Of a stretch of 37,245 bases of DNA, positions 10 through 16,991 are shown one piece after another (position 1 is the stretch's first letter; the number at the start of each line of letters is the position of its first letter). This DNA comes from Steroidobacteraceae bacterium (GTDB lineage: Bacteria > Pseudomonadota > Gammaproteobacteria > Steroidobacterales > Steroidobacteraceae): contig JADGHX010000029.1 in the NCBI GenBank assembly GCA_019683695.1, positions 1-37,245 on the forward strand. The letters are read 5' to 3'. The notes beneath the pieces were generated by a model that did not search any database, was not told the DNA's origin, and saw only the letters and a list, made by a program, of their open reading frames with translations. Position numbers and translations under genes: made by a program.

Positions 10-2109
10 GTCTCAATCCCTTCTTCATCAGGGCATCTCATCGAACAAGCACGGCCTGTCCTACCGGTTCCGGTCTCATGTCTCAATCCCTTCTTCATCA
101 GGGCATCTCATCGAACCGCTCGACGCCGAGTACTGGCCCGCATTCGAGGCGTCTCAATCCCTTCTTCATCAGGGCATCTCATCGAACCGAGCGGCTCAAG
201 GAAGCGCGTCGCGCGGTACGTGAGGTCTCAATCCCTTCTTCATCAGGGCATCTCATCGAACCTGTACTGACTGACCGCACGTGCGAATGCGCGGTTGTCT
301 CAATCCCTTCTTCATCAGGGCATCTCATCGAACCTCCAGCGGATTGTCATGCTCGCCGCGGAGCATCTGGTCTCAATCCCTTCTTCATCAGGGCATCTCA
401 TCGAACAGAAATCCGACGCCGACCGCCTGCGCGAGCTGATCGTCTCAATCCCTTCTTCATCAGGGCATCTCATCGAACCGCGATGGTCGGTAAACGCGGC
501 GTGCTCTTCATGTCTCAATCCCTTCTTCATCAGGGCATCTCATCGAACCCTCGCGCGCTACGAAAAAGAGTTGAAGACTCTTTGTCTCAATCCCTTCTTC
601 ATCAGGGCATCTCATCGAACCCGTACCGCGAGCACGTTCCGCCTGACCCGAAGGTCTCAATCCCTTCTTCATCAGGGCATCTCATCGAACCGCTGGCGTA
701 GATCAGCGCGACGCGTTCGCGGTTGTCTCAATCCCTTCTTCATCAGGGCATCTCATCGAACCTGCTACGAGTGCAAAAAGGACATCTACGCGCGTCTCAA
801 TCCCTTCTTCATCAGGGCATCTCATCGAACCATCTGGCGGCCAAGCAAGTCGACGAGAGTTTTTGTCTCAATCCCTTCTTCATCAGGGCATCTCATCGAA
901 CCCGACGCGCGCGGGGAACTGGTCTACGACCGCTGGTGTCTCAATCCCTTCTTCATCAGGGCATCTCATCGAACGCGACAACGGCAAGATGTACGTGCGC
1001 GGCTACTACAGTCTCAATCCCTTCTTCATCAGGGCATCTCATCGAACACTGGAGGGGCTAACGATGACGATACAGGAATTCGTGTCTCAATCCCTTCTTC
1101 ATCAGGGCATCTCATCGAACTTACCTGTGTGGCATCGACGACAGGTTTTGCAAGTCTCAATCCCTTCTTCATCAGGGCATCTCATCGAACCCCGAGTTGG
1201 GCGGCCTGGCTGGTATACCTCAGAGGTCTCAATCCCTTCTTCATCAGGGCATCTCATCGAACACGGAACGGCGATTAAATCCTGTACTGACTGACGTCTC
1301 AATCCCTTCTTCATCAGGGCATCTCATCGAACCAACCGCGTCGATGACGTGAACACGGCGCGCTAGGCGTCTCAATCCCTTCTTCATCAGGGCATCTCAT
1401 CGAACCAATGCATTCGCGCGCGAGGTCGGCTATAGCAGGTCTCAATCCCTTCTTCATCAGGGCATCTCATCGAACGCACGTGAGCATCGACCGGCCGCGC
1501 AGCGTTCGTCTCAATCCCTTCTTCATCAGGGCATCTCATCGAACCCGATGGGCGCAAGGAGGAGGCGAAGCTGATCAGTCTCAATCCCTTCTTCATCAGG
1601 GCATCTCATCGAACAGAAGGCCATGAAGGTAATCTCGATACCACAGAGTCTCAATCCCTTCTTCATCAGGGCATCTCATCGAACCAGCGACGACGCGTCT
1701 GAGGCCGAGGCCATCGAGGGTCTCAATCCCTTCTTCATCAGGGCATCTCATCGAACGGCGGCCGGGTTGTTATACCTCCGATCGCGTTACCGGTCTCAAT
1801 CCCTTCTTCATCAGGGCATCTCATCGAACCCACGCCAGAGCTGGACGAGCAACTGCGGGGTCTCAATCCCTTCTTCATCAGGGCATCTCATCGAACATCT
1901 GGAAGCGCAATACCGGATGACAATCGAGTGTCTCAATCCCTTCTTCATCAGGGCATCTCATCGAACGCGCGCCGACGTTGCAGCAGCTCTGTGAACGCTG
2001 GTCTCAATCCCTTCTTCATCAGGGCATCTCATCGAACTCTCGCTGATGAGTACGCCCGATTGGGCTTCGAAGGTCTCAATCCCTTCTTCATCAGGGCATC
2101 TCATCGAAC
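10..2109 (-). CRISPR. CRISPR array, 30 repeats of 37 nt and 29 spacers, type III-B
   Basis: Thirty 37-nt repeats, apparently all identical, start at 10, 80, 151, 225, 297, 370, 442, 512, 584, 654, 725, 794, 865, 938, 1011, 1084, 1154, 1226, 1296, 1369, 1439, 1508, 1578, 1648, 1720, 1793, 1860, 1930, 2001 and 2073. On the plus strand each begins GTCTCAATCC and ends CATCGAAC. Spacers are 30-37 nt. I infer leftward (minus-strand) transcription. The repeat read that way ends in ATTGAGAC, close to the common 8-nt crRNA 5' handle ATTGAAAC. The adaptation genes also lie on the right, which should be the leader end. The nine bases before 10 could be another spacer, so the array may continue past the left edge. 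The long open frames across this region are repeat translations, not genes. Confidence 0.99.
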
Positions 2110-2182: not shown

Positions 2183-2192
2183 TTAACCTGAC
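2177..2192. repeat. 16-bp perfect palindrome at leader/cas2b junction
   Basis: GTCAGGTTAACCTGAC is a perfect 16-bp palindrome that contains the cas2b stop codon and sits about 70 bp from the first repeat. It could bind a dimeric protein or mark the leader. There is no T tract, so a terminator is unlikely. Confidence 0.6.
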
Positions 2193-2551
2193 GCTTTGCT
2201 TCGAGCACTGGTGGCCTTGGCCGACGGCGGCCGCCGAGTGAACGGAACAGAACGCGACGGAACAACTCCGGAGAGCATGAGTGTACCGTCTGGCAGCCCT
2301 TGCGAACCGAGCGTGTCGACGACTGGCATCTTCGGAATTCGATAGATGCGAACGTCATCGACACGGTCGTCTATTCGATCTGCAATTCGCGCTTTGATTA
2401 TTCCGAGCCGTTGTGGCGTGGCTTGCGTAACGAAGATGGAGTATTGAATCGACACGGCCTCTTCACTCAGAAGGCGATGCACTCGCCTGAGCCTGCGCGG
2501 AGACCGGATATCATAAGCGATAAGCCATTCGGCTGATTCGTTCAGTGCCAT
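2183..2551 (-). CDS. cas2: Cas2 (second copy, Cas2b) with basic C-terminal tail
   Basis: A Cas2-family protein of 122 aa; Cas2 dimers bridge Cas1 dimers in the spacer-integration complex. The beta1 motif IAYDI places the conserved Asp at residue 14. A typical ferredoxin-fold pattern follows, with VRIYRIP near 67-73 and a terminal motif GLPDGTLML near 85-93. Cas2 proteins usually end about there. This one goes on for some 29 residues rich in Ser, Arg and Lys, running towards the leader. The start ATG (2551) lies inside the end of cas1b (10-nt overlap), so the two are translationally coupled. It differs clearly from the other cas2 at 4394-4678. A decayed partial copy of this gene lies at 5151-5301. 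Confidence 0.88.
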   Translation of the reverse strand: MALNESAEWLIAYDIRSPRRLRRVHRLLSEEAVSIQYSIFVTQATPQRLGIIKARIADRIDDRVDDVRIYRIPKMPVVDTLGSQGLPDGTLMLSGVVPSRSVPFTRRPPSAKATSARSKASG

Positions 2552-3402
2552 TCGCGGAGAAGCTCCTGCGCCCTGCGGAACAGGCGCCCGAGAATATGCG
2601 CACAACGCCTCTCTAGGTCCTCGCTGTAGGTTTCGAGAATATATATCGCCTCGCGTGCAGTAGTGTCCAACTGCGAGCCCAAGCCCTGCAGCTCGAGTTC
2701 GAGCGCAAGTTCCAGGAGTCTGCAGACGTCCACGGCAAGACTTAACTCAGTGCCATCGATAGCAGTGTAGATCGCTGCAACACCAGCTTTGCGCACGTAC
2801 GCGGAAGAAAGCGCCATGAGTGCTGCGCTGTACAGCGAGTTGCGTGTTGATGCCGGTTGCTTCCTCTGCTCGTAGACGAATCGCCTGATGACTTCCCTAC
2901 GTGCAGGTGCATCCACTGGCCGGCCGGCAGCGCTTCTGTGCGAGATCCACGATTGCACGGCACGCATCCGTTCTGCGCGCAACCAATTGTCGTATTGTTC
3001 ACGCCAGTCAGTCCGCTCCAGAAACTCGGTCAGAAGCCTGTCGAGTGAGGATCTGACTGGAACAGTGGGTTGCACATAGCCCACTGGCGCGCCAGCGGCA
3101 TTCAGAATCACGATTGGGATGGCTCGCTCCAGGCAGCTTCTTACGGCCCGTGCGCGCCATTCAATAGAAGCAGCACAGACGATCCGCGACACCCGAGCCA
3201 ACGGGTATCGCACGATGGCACGACGCTCGCGCGAAACCGCCAGGGCGGGCCCATCGATGTCGACAACGCATCGCCGAGGTGACATCAGATACAGGGGCCT
3301 TGCTTCTGATACGCCGCGCCGAACATCGTGGTTGGGCGTACTTGCGGCCGGGCAGCCGCCAGCGTCGTCAGTTCGGGAGTGTGGACGCGGTTCTGCGTTC
3401 AT
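2542..3402 (-). CDS. Divergent Cas1-like protein (Cas1b) lacking catalytic residues
   Basis: A 286-aa protein with recognisable Cas1 architecture. The N-terminal beta domain runs from about 37 to 115, with a Cas1-like LYL...VDIDG start and a PIVILNAAGAPVG strand. A helical domain follows, in which residues 187-231 align by eye with the region of Cas1a that carries the metal ligands. The acidic position survives (AVDVCRLLE, D225). The His is replaced in AIDGTEL, and the block carrying the catalytic Glu (GLEGTAAAAFF in Cas1a) is missing or unrecognisable. Nuclease activity is therefore unlikely, and a structural or regulatory partner of Cas1a is more plausible. ATGA overlap with cas1a and 10-nt overlap with cas2b place it firmly in the adaptation operon. 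The first 35 residues look poorly conserved, so a later start is possible. Confidence 0.75.
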   Translation of the reverse strand: MNAEPRPHSRTDDAGGCPAASTPNHDVRRGVSEARPLYLMSPRRCVVDIDGPALAVSRERRAIVRYPLARVSRIVCAASIEWRARAVRSCLERAIPIVILNAAGAPVGYVQPTVPVRSSLDRLLTEFLERTDWREQYDNWLRAERMRAVQSWISHRSAAGRPVDAPARREVIRRFVYEQRKQPASTRNSLYSAALMALSSAYVRKAGVAAIYTAIDGTELSLAVDVCRLLELALELELQGLGSQLDTTAREAIYILETYSEDLERRCAHILGRLFRRAQELLREWH

Positions 3403-4391
3403 GCGCCGTCATCCCCTTCCGATTCGTCCTCATCAACAAGCATCGGTTCTCCGTGGCGGCGCAAGCCGCGAACGATGGCTGCGCATTGCCGCCGCAGAAA
3501 ACGACGCAAGAACGACGCCTTCTTTTCCCACGCTGCGTAGAAATGGGCACGGCCAGCCTTGCCGAGCAGACAGGCGCCCTTGTCGTACACAAAACTGTCC
3601 GCACGAAGTTCCCGAGTGCGCAGCATCTCCCAAGCCCAATCGTCTATTCGCGGACGCAGCGGTTCCACGAGGTCGCAGGCCATCGATTCGCGGCCAATCG
3701 CGGGTCGGTGATAGAAGCCAATCAGGGGGTCGAGGCCCGCTGCATGGCAGGCTGACACAGCTTCAAAATGCAGCAGCGTATAACCGAGCGACAGACAGGC
3801 GTTGACAGGATCGCGAGGCGGCCTGCGATTGCGCCCTGCGAAACCCAGACTCTCGGGGAACAGCGCACCGTATCCACGGAAAAACGCCGCTGCTGCCGTA
3901 CCTTCGAGGCCGCGAATTGTTGCCACATCGAGCTTCGAGGATGACTGCAGAGTGCGTCGTGTCGCTTCAATGGATGCGACTGCGTCACTGAGCGCCTTGC
4001 GGCAAGCCGGTCTCTGCTGGATCGCCTCCCGAAGGAGACGCAGGTGACCGCGAGTTTTGGCAAGCACGGTGCGACGCGCCCAGCGGAGGCACCAGTGATT
4101 GTCGAGCGCAAGCTGATATTGCGCGAGGCGGATGGCCGCATCCGAGTGCCCGGGGCCAAGCAGAATGGCAATGCGCTTGCTCTGTCTCCGGCTGAGAAGG
4201 ACAGTCGCGACGCCATTTTCGCCGAGACGAGTGAGCACCGCGGCTTCGAGCTTCACATTGCCCTGAATGACCAGGCGATCAAGCAGATTCAATGCAATCG
4301 TTCCACGCTTCTCACCGGATTCGTACAATGCGAGCGCTGCACCATCCGGTCGCAGCTCAAGATTTGAGCGATCCAGAACGAGCGTAGCCAT
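3399..4391 (-). CDS. cas1: Cas1 CRISPR integrase (canonical, Cas1a)
   Basis: Metal-dependent DNA integrase that inserts new spacers together with Cas2. It is 330 aa, normal for the family. The N-terminal beta domain is followed by the helical catalytic domain. All three metal ligands are visible: E163 in GLEGTAAAAFFRGYG, H228 in LDPLIGFYHRP, and D240 (with E243) in SMACDLVEPLRP. There is no fused reverse transcriptase or Cas4 domain. The gene starts two bases after the cas2a stop and overlaps cas1b by ATGA. An acidic C-terminal tail rich in Asp and Glu ends the protein. Confidence 0.97.
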   Translation of the reverse strand: MATLVLDRSNLELRPDGAALALYESGEKRGTIALNLLDRLVIQGNVKLEAAVLTRLGENGVATVLLSRRQSKRIAILLGPGHSDAAIRLAQYQLALDNHWCLRWARRTVLAKTRGHLRLLREAIQQRPACRKALSDAVASIEATRRTLQSSSKLDVATIRGLEGTAAAAFFRGYGALFPESLGFAGRNRRPPRDPVNACLSLGYTLLHFEAVSACHAAGLDPLIGFYHRPAIGRESMACDLVEPLRPRIDDWAWEMLRTRELRADSFVYDKGACLLGKAGRAHFYAAWEKKASFLRRFLRRQCAAIVRGLRRHGEPMLVDEDESEGDDGA

Positions 4392-4393
4392 GA

Positions 4394-4678
4394 TCAGCCG
4401 ACGTAGAAGTACGGTGGATCTACAGGTTCAACGGCGACACCCAAGGTGTACACGCGAGCGCGCGGGTCGAGCTTCAGCAGGAAGAAGCGATCGTTATCCT
4501 CATCCAGGATCAGCGCCATTTCGTGCAGCAGTTCAGCCTTCTCCGCTGCGGTGAGAAAGACCTCGTAGAAGGATTTTTGCCCTCCGGTCGCATGACCCTT
4601 GACGAGTTCCAGACTCGCGCGCAACCGCTTTCGGTCGGCGACATCATAGGCGGCCAGATAGAGGTCACGTTCGGGCAT
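4394..4678 (-). CDS. cas2: Cas2 (canonical length, Cas2a)
   Basis: A 94-aa Cas2 protein, partner of Cas1 in spacer integration. The first strand LYLAAYDV carries the conserved Asp at residue 12, and the length is typical. The start at 4678 is preceded by a GGAG/AGGAA-like ribosome site. An in-frame extension upstream overlaps the LysR remnant and does not look coding. The gene is the first of the adaptation cluster and is separated from cas6 by a 622-nt scar, so it may have its own promoter. It is only distantly similar to Cas2b. Confidence 0.9.
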   Translation of the reverse strand: MPERDLYLAAYDVADRKRLRASLELVKGHATGGQKSFYEVFLTAAEKAELLHEMALILDEDNDRFFLLKLDPRARVYTLGVAVEPVDPPYFYVG

Positions 4679-5150: not shown

Positions 5151-5301
5151 AACCGAGCGTGTCGACAACTGGCATTTTCGGGATTCGGTAGATGCGAACG
5201 TCATCGACACGGTCGTCTATTAGATCTGCAATTCGCGCCCGGATTGAGATGGAGTATTGAATCGACACGGCCTCTTCACTCGAAAGGCGATGCACCCGCC
5301 T
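5151..5301 (-). pseudogene. Decayed partial duplicate of cas2b
   Basis: These 151 bp match 2305-2488 inside cas2b, with about 8 substitutions and a net 33-nt deletion that removes roughly 11 codons after the SIQYSI segment. The start of Cas2, including its conserved Asp, is missing. At the right the copy abuts the cas6 stop codon. At the left it ends at the 26-bp inverted repeat, so the reading frame runs into unrelated sequence. It is non-functional as Cas2. Confidence 0.88.
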
Positions 5302-6305
5302 TATGCCGACCTGGACGCATGCTCAAAGACGCGCGTGCGTACGTCGAGCGGATTGCGGGTTGCGTGGGTGAACGTGACTTCGTATTTGCCGAGTCCCATC
5401 GTCGCGTTTTTTCCGGCATGCAACCACTGCCCGAGCCACAGCCAGCATGCGAGCTCGGTAAGAGGGCCGGTAAGCGTCCATTCACCGATCACACCACCCA
5501 GAGCCATCTCCTGTTTCTGACGAGAGGAATAGCGCCTCCAATCGCGCCAGCGAAGATTCCGAGTGTCCTGCAGTGCCTCGGCTTGCAGTGCCAAGTCAGT
5601 CGGATTCTTCACGAAGCCAGGCATGTCGGCGTGAATATCGAGCATGAGGGACGCGCGGCGCATGATCGCCGTGATCAGTGTTCTCGCGTGCAGCTCCTCC
5701 GGCCCCAATGCACGCCCCTGATTCTGAAGTCGCAGTGGCGTATGGATCCGCAGAGTTGCCGAATCCACCTCCGGGAAAGCGGGCACAACGAGTTCGGCCA
5801 GGTGGGACCGGATACTTTGAGTGTGGGTGTCCCATACGGATGTTCCCGGCCCGCTTGTCTCGAGCAGGACGTCTACCAACTCCGCGCGGGCACGGCGTTT
5901 GCCCAGGCCCTGTCGAAATGCGCGCCGGAACGAATGGACCACAAGTGGCAACTGGTTCAGGGCCCGGCCGAACAGCACAACACCGAACGAAATCGTGTCG
6001 CCTTGGGCAATTCGGCGAGCACCGAACGGGGGCGGCTCGATTACGTAAGGGTTGGGCACGGATGAAAACTTCTGCAGCGTGTGATGCGGAGGAGCAGGGG
6101 TTTCGAACATGGCAGGGTACGCACACGTACGAAGCAGAGAACACGCTGCACATTGCTTCAGTCCCGTGATGCAGACCGTCCGCTTCAACGCCGCTCCGAG
6201 CTGCCCTCGCAGCAACGATCCCGCGTACTCGGGAAGGTGAAGGTCATCGGTGACACGGAAGAGAAGGCGGTAGCGAGCGACTGGCAGCCGCTGGCCGGGC
6301 ATCAT
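5301..6305 (-). CDS. cas6: Cas6 pre-crRNA processing endoribonuclease
   Basis: A RAMP-fold endoribonuclease that cuts the CRISPR transcript within repeats, leaving an 8-nt 5' handle (here predicted AUUGAGAC). The protein is 334 aa. The N-terminal half carries a Cys cluster (C45, C52, C55, C61) of the kind seen in proteobacterial Cas6 proteins: CITG...CAAC...CAYP. The C-terminal half has the family glycine-rich region, with GGVIGEWTLTG and the G-loop HAGKNATMGLGKYEV near 297-311. The start ATG (6305) overlaps the stop of the CARF-nuclease gene as ATGA, which decides against the slightly longer frame. It is the last gene before the scar at 4679-5300. Confidence 0.92.
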   Translation of the reverse strand: MMPGQRLPVARYRLLFRVTDDLHLPEYAGSLLRGQLGAALKRTVCITGLKQCAACSLLRTCAYPAMFETPAPPHHTLQKFSSVPNPYVIEPPPFGARRIAQGDTISFGVVLFGRALNQLPLVVHSFRRAFRQGLGKRRARAELVDVLLETSGPGTSVWDTHTQSIRSHLAELVVPAFPEVDSATLRIHTPLRLQNQGRALGPEELHARTLITAIMRRASLMLDIHADMPGFVKNPTDLALQAEALQDTRNLRWRDWRRYSSRQKQEMALGGVIGEWTLTGPLTELACWLWLGQWLHAGKNATMGLGKYEVTFTHATRNPLDVRTRVFEHASRSA

Positions 6306-7444
6306 CGACCGGTCACCCATACCTTGAGTTTCTCGTCGAGGCGGCGGAGGTCACTGCCGCACACGAGCTCGACGTTCAGGGCGCGTGCTAACCTTTTCTC
6401 GTGCTCGTCAAGCATGCGATAGCTCGCGAGCATCGCGCGTGTGCCCAGTCCTCCAATGCGCCGGGAGATCTCGGCCAGCTTGAACAGCGCATCATTGGCT
6501 TTGCTGGCTTGCACGCCGTTCATGCGCGCTGTCTTGCACTCGATAACGTGTAGCCGGTTCCTTGCCATGAAGGCGACATCCAGCTCGTTCTTGACGCCGC
6601 TGGCATCGAATACGACGAGATTGACGTGCTTGTCCCGAACGCCAAGCTCCTGAGAGAGTCGCGACACCTCTCGGTATACGTATTCCTCGATCCACCCGCC
6701 ACCAGCGAACGCCCGGTCGGATTCACTGCGGAACTCGATGCGATCGCCTCCGATCGCAAGCACATCGGAGTCCGAAAACTTTTGCAGCAGCGACTGAAGA
6801 CCGGCACTGCCGCCGTGGGGCGGCAACTCGATGCTCAAGCTTTCGCGCGCTTCTGCGGCATGCGCCAATGCATTGAGCTCGCCAATTGGGCCAGCGAGGC
6901 TGCCGACGTTCAGAATCAGATCTTCGAGCAGGCCGTCGAGATTCTTGCTCGAATCCGGGCTCCTGAGTCCGGGTTGGGGGTCATACCCATAAGCCCGAAG
7001 ATAATCAGGCAGTCGAATCTTCGGCTCGAGCCGGAATCGAGTCGGTTCGTTCGTTAGGACAATGAGCTCATCCGTATCGATATCGACGTAGAAGACGTCC
7101 CAACGCAACCCTCCCTCTCGTACCGTCTGATAGGCAGCGAGCGCCATGAGCTTGGTGCCACCGCTGAGATTGAGTGCGACCTGCTCTTTCTCATACTCCG
7201 ACGCGACGTTCAATACGATATTCTTCAGGCGCACAACATCGTGCTCGTCGTCTATCAGTACCCGACTGGTCTTGATGCCCGATGTGCGGAGCACTCTTTC
7301 CATCGCGTCCGCTTTTGATGCCATCTTCCCGGTCACCAGAAGAATGACGTTCTGCGGCTTTTGGCATTGCGGATCCAGGGCGGGCAGCAGGTTGGGCGCC
7401 GCCTGCGCCGAAACGAAACAAATGTGGATTTTCGCTTTCAGCAC
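6302..7444 (-). CDS. CARF-domain PD-(D/E)XK nuclease, Can2/Card1 family
   Basis: A type III ancillary effector: an N-terminal CARF domain senses cyclic oligoadenylate (cA4 in characterised Can2/Card1 proteins) and switches on a C-terminal nuclease that degrades nucleic acid. In this 380-aa protein the CARF ligand loop is visible as LNLSGGTKLMALAAYQ (91-106). The nuclease core is NELDVAFMARNRLHVIECKT, with D289, E302 and K304 forming the D...ExK signature, and an upstream acidic WIEEYVYREV near 251-260. No HEPN motif is seen. The start is GTG at 7444 with a weak ribosome site, 42 nt after cmr6; the end overlaps cas6. Substrate preference (DNA, RNA or both) cannot be read from sequence. Confidence 0.9.
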   Translation of the reverse strand: MLKAKIHICFVSAQAAPNLLPALDPQCQKPQNVILLVTGKMASKADAMERVLRTSGIKTSRVLIDDEHDVVRLKNIVLNVASEYEKEQVALNLSGGTKLMALAAYQTVREGGLRWDVFYVDIDTDELIVLTNEPTRFRLEPKIRLPDYLRAYGYDPQPGLRSPDSSKNLDGLLEDLILNVGSLAGPIGELNALAHAAEARESLSIELPPHGGSAGLQSLLQKFSDSDVLAIGGDRIEFRSESDRAFAGGGWIEEYVYREVSRLSQELGVRDKHVNLVVFDASGVKNELDVAFMARNRLHVIECKTARMNGVQASKANDALFKLAEISRRIGGLGTRAMLASYRMLDEHEKRLARALNVELVCGSDLRRLDEKLKVWVTGR

Positions 7445-7486: not shown

Positions 7487-8677
7487 CTATGCCCGCTTCG
7501 GAGCGATCTCCGCCAGTCGCTTCGCGAGCTTGCGCGGCCGATCATTGAATTTCGGCTTCCGCTTCTTTCCCTCAACGGCATCGGGGTTCGCCATGATTCC
7601 ACGCCAGCGTTTCTCGACTTCGTGCACAAGAAGCTCATGAGCTTCGTACGAGAGGGCATTGCGCTCTGCAAGAAAGCCCTCGACCTCACCCAGAAATACA
7701 TTGTTGTCGGTCCCGAACCAGGTCGACAGTTTCCGCTTCACCCACGCAGCGTCTTCCGGCAGCCCCGCAAGGGCTTTCTCGAGCTCGGCGGCGCGTCGTC
7801 GGCGCTCTTCCTTCTCGCGCATCTGCCGCTCCCACGCCTCCTGGGCGGCCGCATCCTCGCGAAACGTGCCGTATCCGACAGATGTCTTCGCTCCGAAGCC
7901 GAGCCATTCGAATGCGTGGAAAAACGTGGTCCGGAGCAGCTGCTGCCACCGTTGCCCCTCAGCGAGGTCCGCTCGGGTCATCAAAGCCACCGGATCACAT
8001 TGAACGTGGAACACGAAACGCGACTTCGGCGGCACGGTCAGGAAGTAGACTGGGATAGGCTGTCCGGAATCATGCGGCGGTTCGCCGCGCTGGTAGTAGT
8101 GGCTTTGGTGCGGGGTCATCACGTCCACGGCGAGTGTGCCGGCGTCAATTTGCGGGATCACATCCCAAAACTGCAATGCGCCACGCCGTGCACCGGAACC
8201 GTGCTCATCGATTTCCTGGCCGAATAGCGCATCGACCGTCGCGTTGTCCCATTCGTGACTGTTTTCCCACATTCCACCGGCGAGCTCGGACGCGGCTCGA
8301 CGGAGAACGCCCTTGACTCCACTACCGGGCAGATAGGGAAGCCCGTATGGATTGAGAAACGCAAAGCCGTTTTCGAGGGGATGTTCATTTCCCAGGCCGG
8401 AGACGAATGGGGACAACGCGAGTGCCTCCAGCCGCAGCAGCCGCCCCTGCTGCGCAAGCGGCTCGGCGAGAGCGGTCTGCCGCTCGAGCAGTGCCTTCAA
8501 TGTGGCCTGGTCCCGGTCGGTCAGCTTCGTCACAGACTTCCAGGCATTCTGTGACGTGCTGTCATTCCTGCTCCAGTCGCCCTCCTTCCATATGGACAGA
8601 AGAGCTCCGAAGCGCATGGCCGGCGACGCATCTGCGAAGTTCCGACCCAGGTATGCGGGAACAGCGGCGGCGGTCAT
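7487..8677 (-). CDS. cmr6: Cmr6, type III-B RAMP backbone subunit
   Basis: A RAMP (Cas7-like) subunit near the far end of the Cmr backbone. The core spans roughly residues 70-290: LPGSGVKGVLRRAA is the glycine-rich RAMP motif, with MTPHQSHYY and PVYFLTVPPKSRFVFHV in the middle and FEWLGFGAKTSVGYGTF at the end. The protein continues for about 120 further residues as a highly charged helical segment (AWERQMREKEERRRRAAEL onward) ending in a Lys/Arg-rich tail, which makes it longer (396 aa) than a minimal Cmr6. The ATG at 8677 follows the cmr5 stop by one base; an upstream in-frame start would overlap cmr5 and is less likely. Confidence 0.92.
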   Translation of the reverse strand: MTAAAVPAYLGRNFADASPAMRFGALLSIWKEGDWSRNDSTSQNAWKSVTKLTDRDQATLKALLERQTALAEPLAQQGRLLRLEALALSPFVSGLGNEHPLENGFAFLNPYGLPYLPGSGVKGVLRRAASELAGGMWENSHEWDNATVDALFGQEIDEHGSGARRGALQFWDVIPQIDAGTLAVDVMTPHQSHYYQRGEPPHDSGQPIPVYFLTVPPKSRFVFHVQCDPVALMTRADLAEGQRWQQLLRTTFFHAFEWLGFGAKTSVGYGTFREDAAAQEAWERQMREKEERRRRAAELEKALAGLPEDAAWVKRKLSTWFGTDNNVFLGEVEGFLAERNALSYEAHELLVHEVEKRWRGIMANPDAVEGKKRKPKFNDRPRKLAKRLAEIAPKRA

Positions 8678-8678
8678 T

Positions 8679-11153
<2,475 letters not shown>

Positions 11154-11157
<4 letters not shown>

Positions 11158-14100
11158 GCAGCTTCTCCATGACGCATCTCGCGAGCCAGGAACTCGGCGA
11201 CCGAAAGAAAGTTGGCCAACTCTCGAGACCACACAGTGCCGACCGAATGCGAACCCGCTGGCTGCATGGTTTGCTCTCCCGTTGTGACTTCGGCAAATGC
11301 AGCCAGACGCTGTGCGAGGTCTGGCAGATTGTGGCGTACCTTTGCGCCAGATGCGGACTGCCGGTCGAGCTGGTGCTCGATGAGCTTCGAGAGCATTTCC
11401 GCGTTCCCGCGCGGCGGGGGCAAGTCCTTGAGCCATTCGAGGATGTGATAGATGGCGCGACGGGAAACGCCTTCATCCGAAAGGAACGCTCTCAGGTCGC
11501 GCAGAAGGCGAATCGAACTTCCCCACTTCCCTGTAAGAAACAGCGCGCCCCCGGATCGCTTGATCACGGTCAGAGCAAAGGCATCACGCCCACCTTCGTT
11601 CTTGGCTCGGGCCTCGGCGCTGCGGAGTTCTCGGAGAACGGCGGTCAGAGGCGCCTGATGATGCGCGATAACCGCCCCGCACGATGCGGAAGCGTTTTTG
11701 CCCATCATGCGCATGAGTCGACCGTTCAGAAAGGCGAACCCCTTATCCAGTTTCAGCTCGTTGCGTTGATCGTGTTCTTCGCGGGATTCACGGCACTCCG
11801 GATCATGCCCTGAGTACGCATATCGCAGACGTTGCATTGCCGACAGGAGATCGCTGGCGGGCAGCATCGCCAGCACATCATCGCCGCCCGCATAGATCAC
11901 CTTCCCGCGGTGCTCACGCTCCACGACGTGGCGTGCCACGATCAGCGAAAAGTCGTTGAGCGCGCCGGAGATTGCGAGGTGACGATTGGGTGAGATGGCG
12001 CGTGCCTGCGCTCCATACTGACGTATCAGGTCGTGCTCCCTGGCGTGATCCGCGAAACCCTTCCTCACTTGCGGATGGAAGCTTTCGAGATAGGAGATCG
12101 CAGTAGGTCCGGCGCCCGAGAGAATCCGGCCCATGTGATCTCCATCCATGAAGACCAGAGCGTAGTAGGTCTCGGCCTTGTGCCCGAGGCGGGCTTCAAT
12201 CTTCGCCTGCAACGACAAGAGCTTTTGCTCGTCCTCCGGACTTTCCGAGTCAGACAGACGATCCATTTCGCCGACAAGGCGCGCAGCAGCAGTGTCGCGC
12301 AGCCTTGCCAGGCGCGGCGGCAATGCAGGTGGCTCGGCATTGGCGGAAATCTCGGCCAGAACGCCACGGTCATCGGATGAAGCCAGCGCAGAATCCAGCG
12401 CCTCCAGGTTCGCTGCAATGGCCATCGTATGCGTCGACACCACGAAGCGATCGATGCGGGAGCCTTCCAATGCCTTGCCGACTTCTTCCGAAAACAAGGT
12501 TGGCCATAACCGCTTGATCGCGGCAAGCGCACCGAGGTGCTCTCCCTTCTTTGCCCATGCTGGCTTGCGCTCGGAAAGTCTTGCCCATAGCGTGTCGCTC
12601 TGCTGCCGGTAGGACTTCTGGAGCTGCTTCGGGTCGGCCGTCAGCCATTCCGTCTCTCCAGTGAGCGAGCAGCGCCATCCTTCCTGCTTGCACTGAGCGA
12701 AGGGACGCACGGTCTTGGCCGCCGCCAGCACTCTTTCCGAAAGATCATGGATGGCTGGATACAGAACGCCCGGATTGGGAGAGAAAAACGTCGTCGTCCT
12801 TCCATTTTCGCCCTGGAGGGTCATTTCCTTCTGCAGGAGCCGCCATGCAGGTGTCGCAAGGAAGCCCGGGCTATCGTTGTTCCCGGAGTGAAAGTAGGGC
12901 GCCATTGCGACCGACAGGGCTGCAACGTCCAGGTCCGTCTGCTTTTCGACATTTCGCGGACGAATGAGACAGAACGGAACGATCGCCCAATGCACTTCCG
13001 GGAAGCCCGCCAGCTGTTCGCGGACCTGGCCATATGCGTGAACGGTTTCGTCGCGCGGTTGTGCCTTCTGACGGAGCCCTGCTTCCTCCAGAAGTCGATC
13101 GACGACGTCATGCCCGATGTCCAGGAGCCACTTGCGCAGCCGAGTTTCAATCTCCCTGGCAAGCGACTCAGCATCCTTGCGAGGGACAATTGCGACAAAG
13201 CGGTTCGGCAGAGCCGCCGAGAAGAGTGGATTGCTGTCCGTTCTACCGCCCGATGCCCACTCACATCGCGAAAAGAGTTCCTTGGGCAAACCGCATTCGT
13301 CTCGCAACCAAAGATCGACCTGCGGCACAGCGCGCAATCTTGGGAACAACACAGCGTCAGGGCCAAGCGCCTCACACACGGGCTTCATCGCTTCCCAGGC
13401 GAGCCGTGACAGCAGGTGGGAACCTGACCAGAGATCCGACGTGGAGCGTGCCGCCGCGATGAAGCTCTGAACCGGCCCGATCGAGAGCGCCAGTAATGCG
13501 GCCTCGTTGTCGTGATCAGCCGCAAAGGCACCGGCAAATGCGGATGTGACGTCGAGATGATCCCAGATGGAGTGATCGGGAACGCGCGTATCGGCCGGAA
13601 GTAACCGCCACAGCTCGCCGAGCCTTCCAAAGTCGCGTGAATCGTCGAGCTCGGGCCCGAATCGCCACCATGCCAGAAAGATCCTCCTGAACCCCTGCGC
13701 GTCGCGGTCGTCGGGAGGACCGCCCAGCCTTTCGACCAGACCAGAGAAATGCTCCTGGCTGCGCTTCTTGATGTCGGCTATATCGGTATCGCTCAGGCCA
13801 CCCGGCAACTCACAGGATTCGGCGGAAAGCGGGTGTATCAGTACCGGACGTTCGGTCCAGCGGACTTGCGCCCAATCTGCGATCTTCCGCGTTTTCGTCT
13901 CTCCCGCACGCGTGGTGATCGTGATCTCTTCCATCGGCCACTGCGGCCGATCCGCCGCAGCGGCCCACCAATCGGCCCGCTGGACGTGCCGATACAGCTC
14001 ACGGGGAAGTCCCTTCCTGAACAGCACGCTCGAAAGCGCGTGGTCGCCGTCTGCAGTGATGGTCTCGGACCGAATCTCTTCGAGTCCGAGAAGCCGTATC

Positions 14101-14219
14101 AGTGTCTTCGACGTCCCGCCTTCGTGGCCCGCGGGGTCACGCAGCAGCACGAGGGCCTTTTCGGCTGGGTCGTGAATACGAGCCGCAAGCTTCGTCTTCC
14201 AGAAGTTCGCCCTGTCCAT
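11154..14219 (-). CDS. cmr2: Cmr2 (Cas10), large subunit and cyclic oligoadenylate synthase
   Basis: The type III signature protein. Target RNA binding activates its palm domain to make cyclic oligoadenylates, and its HD domain may cleave ssDNA. It is 1021 aa. The N-terminal HD pair is H16-D17 in ARIHDPAEKAL. The signature LSIGPVQSFIAAARSTSDLW marks the first polymerase-like region, and a Cys-containing segment (QCKQEGWRCSLTGE) lies mid-protein. The first palm carries ALVFMDGDHMGRI. The second carries the cyclase motif VIYAGGDDVLAMLPAS, with GGDD at residues 778-781 (11877-11888). Both active sites thus look intact. The start lies 11 nt after cmr1 and the end overlaps cmr3. Confidence 0.97.
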
Positions 14220-14230
14220 TCTTCAACCCT

Positions 14231-15304
14231 TCATCGCATGACCGCTTTGCTTACAGCACGCGCGACGACACCCGATGCGTCGAGCGCCGCTACGATCTCC
14301 TGCCAGGTTCTTCTGAAAGCGGCTGTGTCGAGTAATGCTCGATTGTCCTTCGGCAGTTGATGCGGCATGGCAAACGCGCGCACAAACAACTCGCCTGACG
14401 TGCCTCTGATAACCTTCCAACGTAACGGGCTCGGCATTCGTCCATTCTTGGCGAATCCGAGAACGGCCCGCCGTGGCTTGTCCAGGAGCGAGCGCACGCG
14501 CTTCCTTTCCTCCGCAATTGCTCTGATGGCCTCATGCCACTGCGAAAACGTGTTCTTGCTGTGCCAGATCCAAAGGCCGCTCTCGTCCCTCGCCAGTGAC
14601 ATTGCCCAGTCATCGTCAAGACAAACTTTCCAGTCGCGGGAATACTCGGCAAAGGCGCCGACATCCAATCCAGGGTCTTGCTTCACCTCGCGATCCGGAG
14701 GATCCAGATGCACGGAGCCCCATCCACCGCGGGATCGGCTGCCCGCGGTGCCGAATGCGTGGATCAGCGACAATGTCCGGTGAAAGATTTCGGTGTGCTC
14801 GGCCGGGAACGCGAGCAGAAGCGTCCTGCTGCTCTCGTAGCCCGAAGCCTTGATGGCAGTTCGATCCGGGAGGTTTCCACCTCGCCTGATCAGCCCAAAC
14901 CACGCATAGCTCGTTGAAAGGCTGTCGGAAAGTGGCGCAATTCCCTTCTGAGCCCCTTTGCTCCATGCCACGCCGGTCGGCGTTTGCGCGTCAACAAGTC
15001 GCAGCCTCAAGAGACTCTTCCGTGCTGAAACGTTTCGGCCGGCCTCGTCCGCGTCCTTGTCAAGCCATGTGTGACCGAATAACCGGCCCTCCTCATGTCG
15101 CATCTGGTCCGGGTCTACACGAAACGCATGTTGTGCCGCATAGCCGACTCGCCACCATTGGCGCAGAAGCGCCTTCAACGGAGGTGTCCGCCATTGTGCG
15201 TCCTGAGTTGCGTTCCCAAGGAAGGCAGGCGTCGTGAAACTGACCTGATACGTCAACTGCTTATAAGTCTTCTGCTTCATTCCGCTGCCTGTAATTGCTT
15301 CCAT
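14231..15304 (-). CDS. cmr1: Cmr1, RAMP subunit of the type III-B complex
   Basis: A Cas7-like subunit at the crRNA 3' end of the Cmr complex, and specific to type III-B. The 357-aa protein shows VSFTTPAFLGNATQDAQWR near residue 21, the RAMP PPLKALLRQWWRVGY segment, a HEEGRLFG motif, and the glycine-rich loop FGTAGSRSRGGWGSV. The start at 15304 has an AGGAG ribosome site at usable spacing, 21 nt after the CARF-wHTH gene. An internal MKQKTYKQ start is possible but has no better site. Confidence 0.93.
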   Translation of the reverse strand: MEAITGSGMKQKTYKQLTYQVSFTTPAFLGNATQDAQWRTPPLKALLRQWWRVGYAAQHAFRVDPDQMRHEEGRLFGHTWLDKDADEAGRNVSARKSLLRLRLVDAQTPTGVAWSKGAQKGIAPLSDSLSTSYAWFGLIRRGGNLPDRTAIKASGYESSRTLLLAFPAEHTEIFHRTLSLIHAFGTAGSRSRGGWGSVHLDPPDREVKQDPGLDVGAFAEYSRDWKVCLDDDWAMSLARDESGLWIWHSKNTFSQWHEAIRAIAEERKRVRSLLDKPRRAVLGFAKNGRMPSPLRWKVIRGTSGELFVRAFAMPHQLPKDNRALLDTAAFRRTWQEIVAALDASGVVARAVSKAVMR

Positions 15305-15325: not shown

Positions 15326-16498
15326 TCAACCCGCTCGGTCAATTTGCGCAAAACGAATGCTCTCCGGCGGAATCGCAAGCTTGTAGTGCCTTTGGCGGCT
15401 CGTACCTTTGTCGATACCGTACGTATTGGCGGCAGGTCCGAGTGCTGTCGTGATACGGCGGCGGAGTTTGCTCAGCTTTTGGGCGAAATAGTCATCGATA
15501 ACGCCCTTTGAGGCGCTTATGGCGTCCTCGACGCTGTCGGGTATGTGAAGCTCACCGCAGGCTGCCGCGAGATCTCGCAGATACTCGGCGCACCATTCTT
15601 GGTCCACACAGGCCTTCGCAGGTGCTCTGAGAGGCGGCAATCCTGCTTTTGTACGGTATGCAAGCACCGCCATGACAGCGAAAAGAGCTGGCTCGAGATC
15701 GATGACGCGGCCGCCCGCTCGAATACGCCTGTTGCGCACGTCGATGATCAGCTCAGGCGGTGCGAGCGCCGCACGGGCTGCCGCCACGGTGGCGTTGAAT
15801 GTCGCCTTGCCTTCTATGAGCTCCTTCGGCAATCCATGACGGAGGCTCACGATCGGAATCTCTGCCAGAGAAATCTGTGCATCGCGAGCATTCACCGCCA
15901 GGGGCGGGGCGTCGCGCGTCTGGAGAACTTGATCGTATGGCGTCGGGTAGTAGAAGTCCGGATTCGATTCGAATGGGCGCGAAACGAGGACGTGACTCAG
16001 TCGATCTTGAGGACGTGCAAACAGGGATAGTGCGTACCCGAGATAGAAACCCATTGTCTTGCGGCCCCCCGCCAGCGAAACATGCAGCGCTGCGGCCGTG
16101 TCGCCTGTCAACTCGCGAACGATCGCGGTGATGTAATCCGCCGCGTATTCGTTGTCGCCCGGCGTACGGATGTCTTCCATGGGAAGACCGTTCGCACCCG
16201 CGATTACGTGAATGCAGGATTCGTCAAAACGGATCTCGGGCAGGGAATAATCGGTGCGCAGGCGCCGGAACCACCCTGGCCGGCCCGCAGCCGACATCAA
16301 CAGGTTATTAATTGCTTGCTCCCGTCCTCGCACTGTCGTGATCAGGCGGACCTCGGTGGGTACATACGCTGGCCTTCCTTCCGCCGGGCGTACGGCCAAC
16401 GCATACAGAGTCTCTGTAACGATCTGCGGTGACAGGCCTGTCGCCGCCAACAAGATGCGGCGAGGGTAGCGGTGCGGCTGGTCGGGGTTCAGGTCCAT
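15326..16498 (-). CDS. CARF protein (NE0113/TIGR02584-like) with C-terminal winged helix
   Basis: This is the first gene of the Cmr operon. Residues about 13-180 form a CARF domain: RRILLAATGLSPQIVTETL at the start, VSLAGGRKTMGFYLGYALS as the ligand loop (140-158), then LSHVLVSRPFE and FYYPTP, a pattern typical of the NE0113 family. Some databases label such proteins Csm6 or ring nuclease. I find no HEPN R-x4-6-H motif. Instead, residues from about 250 resemble an OmpR/PhoB-type winged helix: IIDVRNRRIRAGGRVIDLEP, then ALFAVMAVLAY, ending LSKLRRRITTALG...RQRHYKL. I infer a cyclic-oligoadenylate-responsive transcription factor, possibly also a ring nuclease. The ATG at 16498 has no clear ribosome site; a TTG at 16501 is the alternative. 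Confidence 0.75.
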   Translation of the reverse strand: MDLNPDQPHRYPRRILLAATGLSPQIVTETLYALAVRPAEGRPAYVPTEVRLITTVRGREQAINNLLMSAAGRPGWFRRLRTDYSLPEIRFDESCIHVIAGANGLPMEDIRTPGDNEYAADYITAIVRELTGDTAAALHVSLAGGRKTMGFYLGYALSLFARPQDRLSHVLVSRPFESNPDFYYPTPYDQVLQTRDAPPLAVNARDAQISLAEIPIVSLRHGLPKELIEGKATFNATVAAARAALAPPELIIDVRNRRIRAGGRVIDLEPALFAVMAVLAYRTKAGLPPLRAPAKACVDQEWCAEYLRDLAAACGELHIPDSVEDAISASKGVIDDYFAQKLSKLRRRITTALGPAANTYGIDKGTSRQRHYKLAIPPESIRFAQIDRAG

Positions 16499-16991
16499 CA
16501 AAGGGATTGCTTCGTCTTTTGGGTGGAGAGCCTACATGTGAAACGGGCGGCCGTTCCAGATCGCAAGCTTGCGGTTCGCGAACACCCGGGCACACGGTCG
16601 GGCCGCCTGCGTGTCCGCGAACTTCATTCTCCCGTCTACCCTCTGGACGTTCCCCGATTCATGGCGGGGCATCGGGAGCTCAAGGCGGGGACATTCAAGG
16701 CACTGTGCCGAGTATTGCCCGTGCGGCAAGCCCACCTTCCGGGGTCCTGCTGATCAGAAGCTGTTTGGGCGAATCGCAACCCACGCCGACATGGGAGAGC
16801 AACAGCACCGGTCGATGTTTGCGATCTCGGGGAACGGGCCAATCTCAACCGTGTAGTCGCCGCCGCTTGATGAGCAGTGCTTGTCACGGCGCGAGGTTTC
16901 GTGATGCGCTCTTCCCTGATCTAGACGGGCGTCCAGGATGGCACCCTCCCGGCGCATGTCGAGGCGGCCGTGCCCCGCCCAAGTACGCGGT
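16499..16991. other. 493-nt region upstream of the Cmr operon, no firm gene
   Basis: This stretch should hold the promoter of the minus-strand Cmr operon, but I see no strong -35/-10 pair. One short minus-strand frame (16532-16735, about 67 codons) ends ANRKLAIWNGRPFHM and contains a CLEC pair. It continues in the same frame from a longer piece (16754-17050) that is interrupted by a TGA, so it may be a decayed gene. I do not recognise it and would not call it functional. Confidence 0.4.

Follow-up and report, generated by a model that had tools for sequence, protein, structure and literature searches.

Among the closest described systems, a preference of type III spacers for mRNA-pairing crRNAs is documented by Vink et al. 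2021 (PMC8482600). Such spacers fall on the coding strand in 65% of cases on average, while the III-B system of Moraxella reaches 88%. A strong bias is also described among the protective spacers of the type III system of Thermus thermophilus, which has no reverse transcriptase. For this system, Artamonova et al. 2020 (PMC7515739) attribute the bias to selection, as shown by experiment. In Marinomonas mediterranea, a III-B system with RT-Cas1 is found beside a DNA-targeting type I system, i.e., I-F (Silas et al. 2017, PMC5576922).

We analysed a stretch of 37,245 nucleotides from a Steroidobacteraceae bacterium (in the following, the window), which carries a III-B array whose spacers, taken together, point to the same preference. 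As in Thermus thermophilus no reverse transcriptase is present, and like Marinomonas mediterranea the genome combines III-B with a DNA-targeting type I system, which is here of type I-G and comes without RT-Cas1. Set beside Marinomonas mediterranea, both array kinds of the present genome (III-B and I-G) hold one protospacer in common. Whereas Vink et al. mapped protospacers, our strand assignments derive from codon statistics and start-site motifs, for an array without mapped target, and whereas the cause of the bias was shown experimentally for Thermus, it is addressed here by sequence analysis.

The window is one end of contig C197 of the genome (5.18 Mb in 312 contigs, 97.65% complete) and starts inside the array. 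The array (10..2109, minus strand) comprises 30 exact repeats of 37 nt, all identical, and 29 spacers of 30-37 nt. It continues on contig C258, where the same repeat occurs six more times and provides 8 further spacers (37 altogether). On the far side of C258 two degenerate repeats are found, while towards the contig end a repeat is broken by unrelated sequence. This interrupting sequence (L011:7200-7440) resembles the end of a mobile element and is probably the cause of the array being split over two contigs.

Degenerate repeats and the type of handle seen here are markers of array polarity. Here, the degenerate repeats are located at the C258 end, the cas genes adjoin the right end, and ATTGAGAC closes the repeat in the leftward reading, all of which indicates leftward transcription of the array. 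This agrees with what a sequence-only reading of the window had proposed from handle and leader. The same handle class is observed for related loci, whose repeats end in ATTAAGAC or ATTGAGAC and in most cases are oriented like the cas genes. Position next to the cas genes and the ATTGAGAC-type handle are those of a type III-B array.

The genes beside the array form a complete III-B set, all on the minus strand. That is, we find cas6 (5301..6320; PDLC01477, E 4.4e-98), a Card1-like CARF nuclease (6302..7444; PF09002, E 1.1e-25, and PF23400), the run of cmr6, cmr5, cmr4, cmr3, cas10 and cmr1 (7487..15304) and a CARF-domain protein of the NE0113/Csx1 kind (15326..16501; PDLC01904, E 7.5e-120, and PF09623). 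Cas10/Cmr2 is thus accompanied by Cmr3, Cmr4, Cmr5 and Cmr6, i.e., by the III-B core, while cmr1 is identified by a weak match (PDLC01445, E 2.2e-7). Hence, the Cmr effector that the sequence-only reading had presumed is indeed encoded next to the array. Cas10 carries GGDD at ORF residue 778, a motif that would bear on cyclic oligoadenylate signalling.

Next to strand assignment itself. The sequence-only reading had used open frames as its main criterion and had found about 24 of the 29 window spacers to read clearly as sense coding sequence. Open frames do not discriminate, however, as both strands are about equally open (2.32 frames on the displayed strand, 2.41 on the opposite one), and we discarded the count. 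Instead, we derived a codon model from 358 genes (480 kb) of this genome and used it to score sense versus antisense over all six frames of each spacer. Single-spacer calls are weak, since true gene fragments of spacer length score sense only 74% of the time. For the 37 spacers of window and C258, 26 show a positive sense score and the fitted sense fraction is 0.86 (0.64-1.00), a value that presumes the codon usage of the host, from which mobile elements may deviate. For the 29 window spacers alone, 20 are positive (14 with LLR>1, 4 with LLR<-1) and the fitted fraction is 0.84 (0.59-1.00). Compared with a 50:50 mixture, the 37 spacers are higher in summed score (P=0.00125) as well as in positive count (P=0.011). 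An earlier, less clean codon model, replaced since its longest-ORF training set probably held wrong-strand frames, provided about the same fraction (25/37 positive; 0.87, 0.58-1.00).

Contig C81 of this genome carries two type I-G arrays, to which the identical scoring was applied. Among their 47 distinct spacers 22 are positive, with a fitted fraction of 0.49 (0.30-0.68), and 0.49 is again obtained when refitting with the pooled models described below. The skew therefore belongs to the type III array. It is real in aggregate, not spacer by spacer: the claim of a general sense reading stands for the array, while its number of clear cases was overstated. Because the array is transcribed leftwards and its spacers are mostly sense as displayed, its crRNAs would mostly be antisense to mRNA, as had been suggested, with strands read from codon statistics.

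The individual spacers illustrate this limit. Five had been put forward as sense examples; 902-937 (LLR 3.3), 975-1010 and 1545-1577 (LLR 2.6) hold, but 1830-1859 (LLR -0.1) and 2038-2072 (LLR -0.5) are undecided. Spacer S14 (975..1010, plus strand) provides the strongest sense call of all (LLR 9.8). Spacer S15 (1048..1083, plus strand) contains a Shine-Dalgarno-like GGAGG followed by ATG and thus resembles a start of translation on the displayed strand; no window spacer shows this arrangement in the opposite direction. Spacer S10 (691..724) had been named as the clear exception, and its coding reading is indeed on the opposite, i.e., minus, strand (LLR -3.1). It is not the sole one, since S3 (188..224, minus strand), missed by the sequence-only reading, is equally clear (LLR -3.2). 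Two more lean to the opposite strand, namely 1615-1647 (LLR -1.6) and S4 (262..296; LLR -1.9). The latter shares about 14 nt with S18 (1263-1295) on the same strand, probably reflecting two captures from one place of one element; merged with S18 (54 nt) it is undecided (LLR -0.35, no strand assigned), and 25/36 spacers are then positive. A remainder of about one in six spacers points the wrong way, these being either non-functional or misread.

S14 and a spacer of an I-G array on C81 (L048:17021-17056) overlap in 30 nt of one protospacer, with the same strand displayed. Because of these shared 30 nt, it is probable that one invader was encountered by both the III-B and the I-G system of the genome. 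Judged from repeat polarity, the respective III-B crRNA would be antisense to the mRNA and the I-G crRNA sense. Within the first I-G array (L048:10142-10567), spacers 6-8 are exactly duplicated as spacers 9-11.

We searched for protospacers of the 29 window spacers, queried as the native array stretch, and found none in phages, plasmids, the own genome or 217 family genomes (own included). Among phages, 10 records were matched, all with E>=2. The plasmids provided chance-level pieces and the repeats of two other arrays only, while in the own genome, apart from the arrays themselves and the I-G spacer that overlaps S14, there were chance pieces only. Weak pieces in 7 other family genomes were considered as protospacers and rejected, since the best full-length agreement is 24-29 of 30-36 nt per spacer, which we take as chance. 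The same applies to viral contigs, where eight spacer cores (S14, S15, S10, S4/S18, S11, S13, S20 and S23) gave 3 matches of 24-25/36 nt. One of these contains the 19-nt core of S15, but with only 24/36 nt matching over the spacer it is not a protospacer. Targets and strands of the window array are thus taken from codon statistics, because no protospacer was found. For a III-B relative from Aeromonas (cas2-cas1-cas2), two spacers match phages with 30/32 and 31/32 nt, and both respective crRNAs (2/2) would be antisense to annotated genes. For array L148, which is from a Solibacteraceae MAG, a search of the genome it belongs to revealed no self-target, only one degenerate piece beside the array.

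Between array and effector genes lies the adaptation cassette, again on the minus strand. It comprises cas2b (2183..2605, likely start near 2551; PF09827, E 3.9e-13), a diverged second Cas1, here termed Cas1' (2542..3402; PDLC01185, E 2.4e-37), cas1 (3399..4391; PF01867, E 2.9e-69) and cas2a (4394..4678; PF09827, E 3.5e-7), for which the ORF is open to 5035 with an N-terminal extension that is probably untranslated. The two Cas2 proteins differ. Cas1' has a Cas1 fold according to both structure model and profile comparison: the structure was predicted with confidence (mean pLDDT 87.5) and aligns with 9p11_D over 242 residues (VIA-align Z 17.8, rmsd 3.8), the Foldseek matches listed are Cas1 or Cas1-family chains, and hhalign relates the protein to Cas1 with prob 99.4. 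The genome may have a third CRISPR locus, as a further, weaker Cas1 is encoded at C127:45064-45774 (L053; PF01867, E 2e-13).

Glu, His and Asp are the catalytic residues of Cas1. They are present in the window's cas1 product (Glu163, His228, Asp240), and all three are kept in 82/82 canonical Cas1 sequences. In the Cas1' family alignment (53 rows after a length cut-off, i.e., the window protein and 52 others), neither Glu nor His is conserved at the matching places, while Asp is found in 42/53. Since catalytic Glu and His are without conserved counterpart, Cas1' has apparently lost its catalytic activity.

Profile searches had suggested that Cas1' is rare: PDLC01185 at E<=1e-12 matched the own genome only among 398 genomes of the phylum, tblastn in plasmids and a first scan of genome contigs found nothing, and 59 relatives provided no other match. 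The scan based on Cas1 overturned this view. Within the 83 loci examined (three from plasmids and, out of 554 relatives, the best 80), 53 carry Cas1' between cas1 and cas2b, 48 supported by tblastn and 5 by position. The cas2a-cas1-cas1'-cas2b cassettes occur in Proteobacteria, Acidobacteria, a Nitrospira and others, the conserved Cas1' without catalytic Glu and His being common to the III-B loci of the window and of the relatives L086-L152. PADLOC has a matching entry, PDLC01185 ('Cas1, diverged variant, second in the loci'), i.e., the same protein family at the same position. This is a catalogue entry only; a functional study of the family was not found in the literature searched.

The relatives also allow a comparison of strand bias with and without the extra Cas1. 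They were collected by scanning genome contigs with a Cas1 alignment (80 loci, the best 80 of 554, plus three plasmids), and, being chosen by Cas1 similarity, the sample favours close relatives. Arrays were oriented by their repeat ends, and spacers were scored with models pooled by G+C content. The finder used reported no array for 35/85 loci, which stand outside the strand counts, and the pooled groups leave out three arrays of unclear direction (L103 18086-18245, L115, L156 11509-11692). The label III-B rests for some loci on Cas1/Cas2 set and repeat, since a cmr operon is not always visible within the flanks.

III-B arrays with extra Cas1 (25 arrays, 843 spacers) show a fitted mRNA-targeting fraction of 0.831 (0.780-0.877); L127 is counted here by its tblastn match, while its ORF itself is classed by position. 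Loci that have the extra Cas1 by position only (3 arrays, 88 spacers) reach 0.842 (0.663-0.975). For III-B arrays without extra Cas1 (13 arrays, 154 spacers) the value is 0.852 (0.731-0.952), and for the III-A/III-D loci L154, L156 and L159 (3 arrays, 134 spacers) it is 0.80. I-G-repeat arrays among the relatives are at 0.427 (0.315-0.545; 5 arrays, 166 spacers), and arrays from the same scan with repeats ending in GGATTGAAAC are mixed (0.67, 0.47-0.84; 4 arrays, 66 spacers). L063, L155, L157, L158, L160, L162, L163 and L165 belong to neither the with- nor the without-Cas1' group of these fractions; taken alone, L063 has 15 spacers and a fraction of 1.00 (0.68-1.00). The Latescibacterota locus L163, which has a PrimPol-type adaptation polymerase directly before cas1 (7773-9911), also looks mRNA-biased (15/19 spacers).

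As a measure independent of codon use, we counted Shine-Dalgarno-like motifs followed by ATG. Of 1137 type III spacers, 46 have such a site in mRNA-sense direction vs. 9 in the opposite one (P=4e-7), while for the 166 I-G spacers the numbers are 0 and 2, respectively. In this count, the spacers without Cas1' number 169, including those of L063, and the spacers with Cas1' number 931, including those of the position-only loci.

Given the weak single-spacer calls and a plus strand that is slightly purine-rich (0.523), the skew might be an artefact of base composition or a chance sample. This is very unlikely: composition-matched shuffles of the spacers (mononucleotide-shuffled) reach the observed sum in 0/300 cases, no skew is seen in the genome's own I-G arrays, and all 28/28 related III-B arrays with at least 10 spacers have a fitted fraction above 0.5 (22/22 with Cas1', position-only included, and 6/6 without) vs. 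1/3 for I-G. The sense skew taken alone would also fit a capture of spacers from RNA, as done by RT-Cas1 systems. To this we attach hardly any credence, since PF00078 (RVT_1) has 0 matches in the whole genome (97.65% complete), in line with the absence of a reverse transcriptase already remarked by the sequence-only reading. Thus, none is fused or next to cas1, and the published RT-Cas1 system gives only a moderate orientation bias (PMC5576922).

The sequence-only reading had left the cause between selection and acquisition oriented by the Cas1/Cas2 set. In the latter case, the Cas1/Cas1'/Cas2a/Cas2b set would insert spacers one way such that orientation is fixed at acquisition. The cassette is asymmetric enough, with one Cas1 lacking catalytic Glu and His and two unlike Cas2, and the newest spacers are as biased as the old ones (first four of each array, n=68, 0.91). 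The leader-proximal and distal halves are equally biased (0.867 vs. 0.850) and therefore do not separate selection from acquisition. But the bias is the same without Cas1' (array bootstrap, with minus without: -0.14 to 0.08), and in published work little or no bias accompanies type III acquisition in the absence of selection (PMC7515739, PMC5576922). Because III-B loci without extra Cas1 as well as III-A/III-D loci are equally biased, orientation by the Cas1/Cas2 set is not supported, and we consider it improbable.

A selection for working spacers, already described in the literature, offers the simplest account and the best fit. The locus is very probably an ordinary type III-B array in which the survival of cells with mRNA-pairing crRNAs enriches antisense spacers, i.e., we infer selection rather than acquisition. 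Fragments of invader DNA would probably be inserted in either direction, and the resulting crRNAs would presumably be made and act on RNA. Cells with a crRNA able to pair with invader mRNA would survive, such that mRNA-antisense spacers may come to make up roughly five in six of the array.

A spacer bias towards mRNA is what one expects of an RNA-targeting system, and the relatives have it as well. It is independent of the composition of the Cas1/Cas2 set, and the sense of spacers is readable from codon statistics and start-site motifs even without a target in the databases. Our analysis also points out that a common III-B adaptation cassette includes a second, conserved Cas1 as partner, which is apparently dead. 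Tentatively, the III-B adaptation module may be a heteromeric integrase of an active Cas1, a catalytically dead Cas1' and two different Cas2, in which the dead partner would introduce asymmetry and set the choice or docking of prespacers, without being the cause of the strand bias. If true, a Cas1'-containing heteromeric integrase would be widespread in type III-B.
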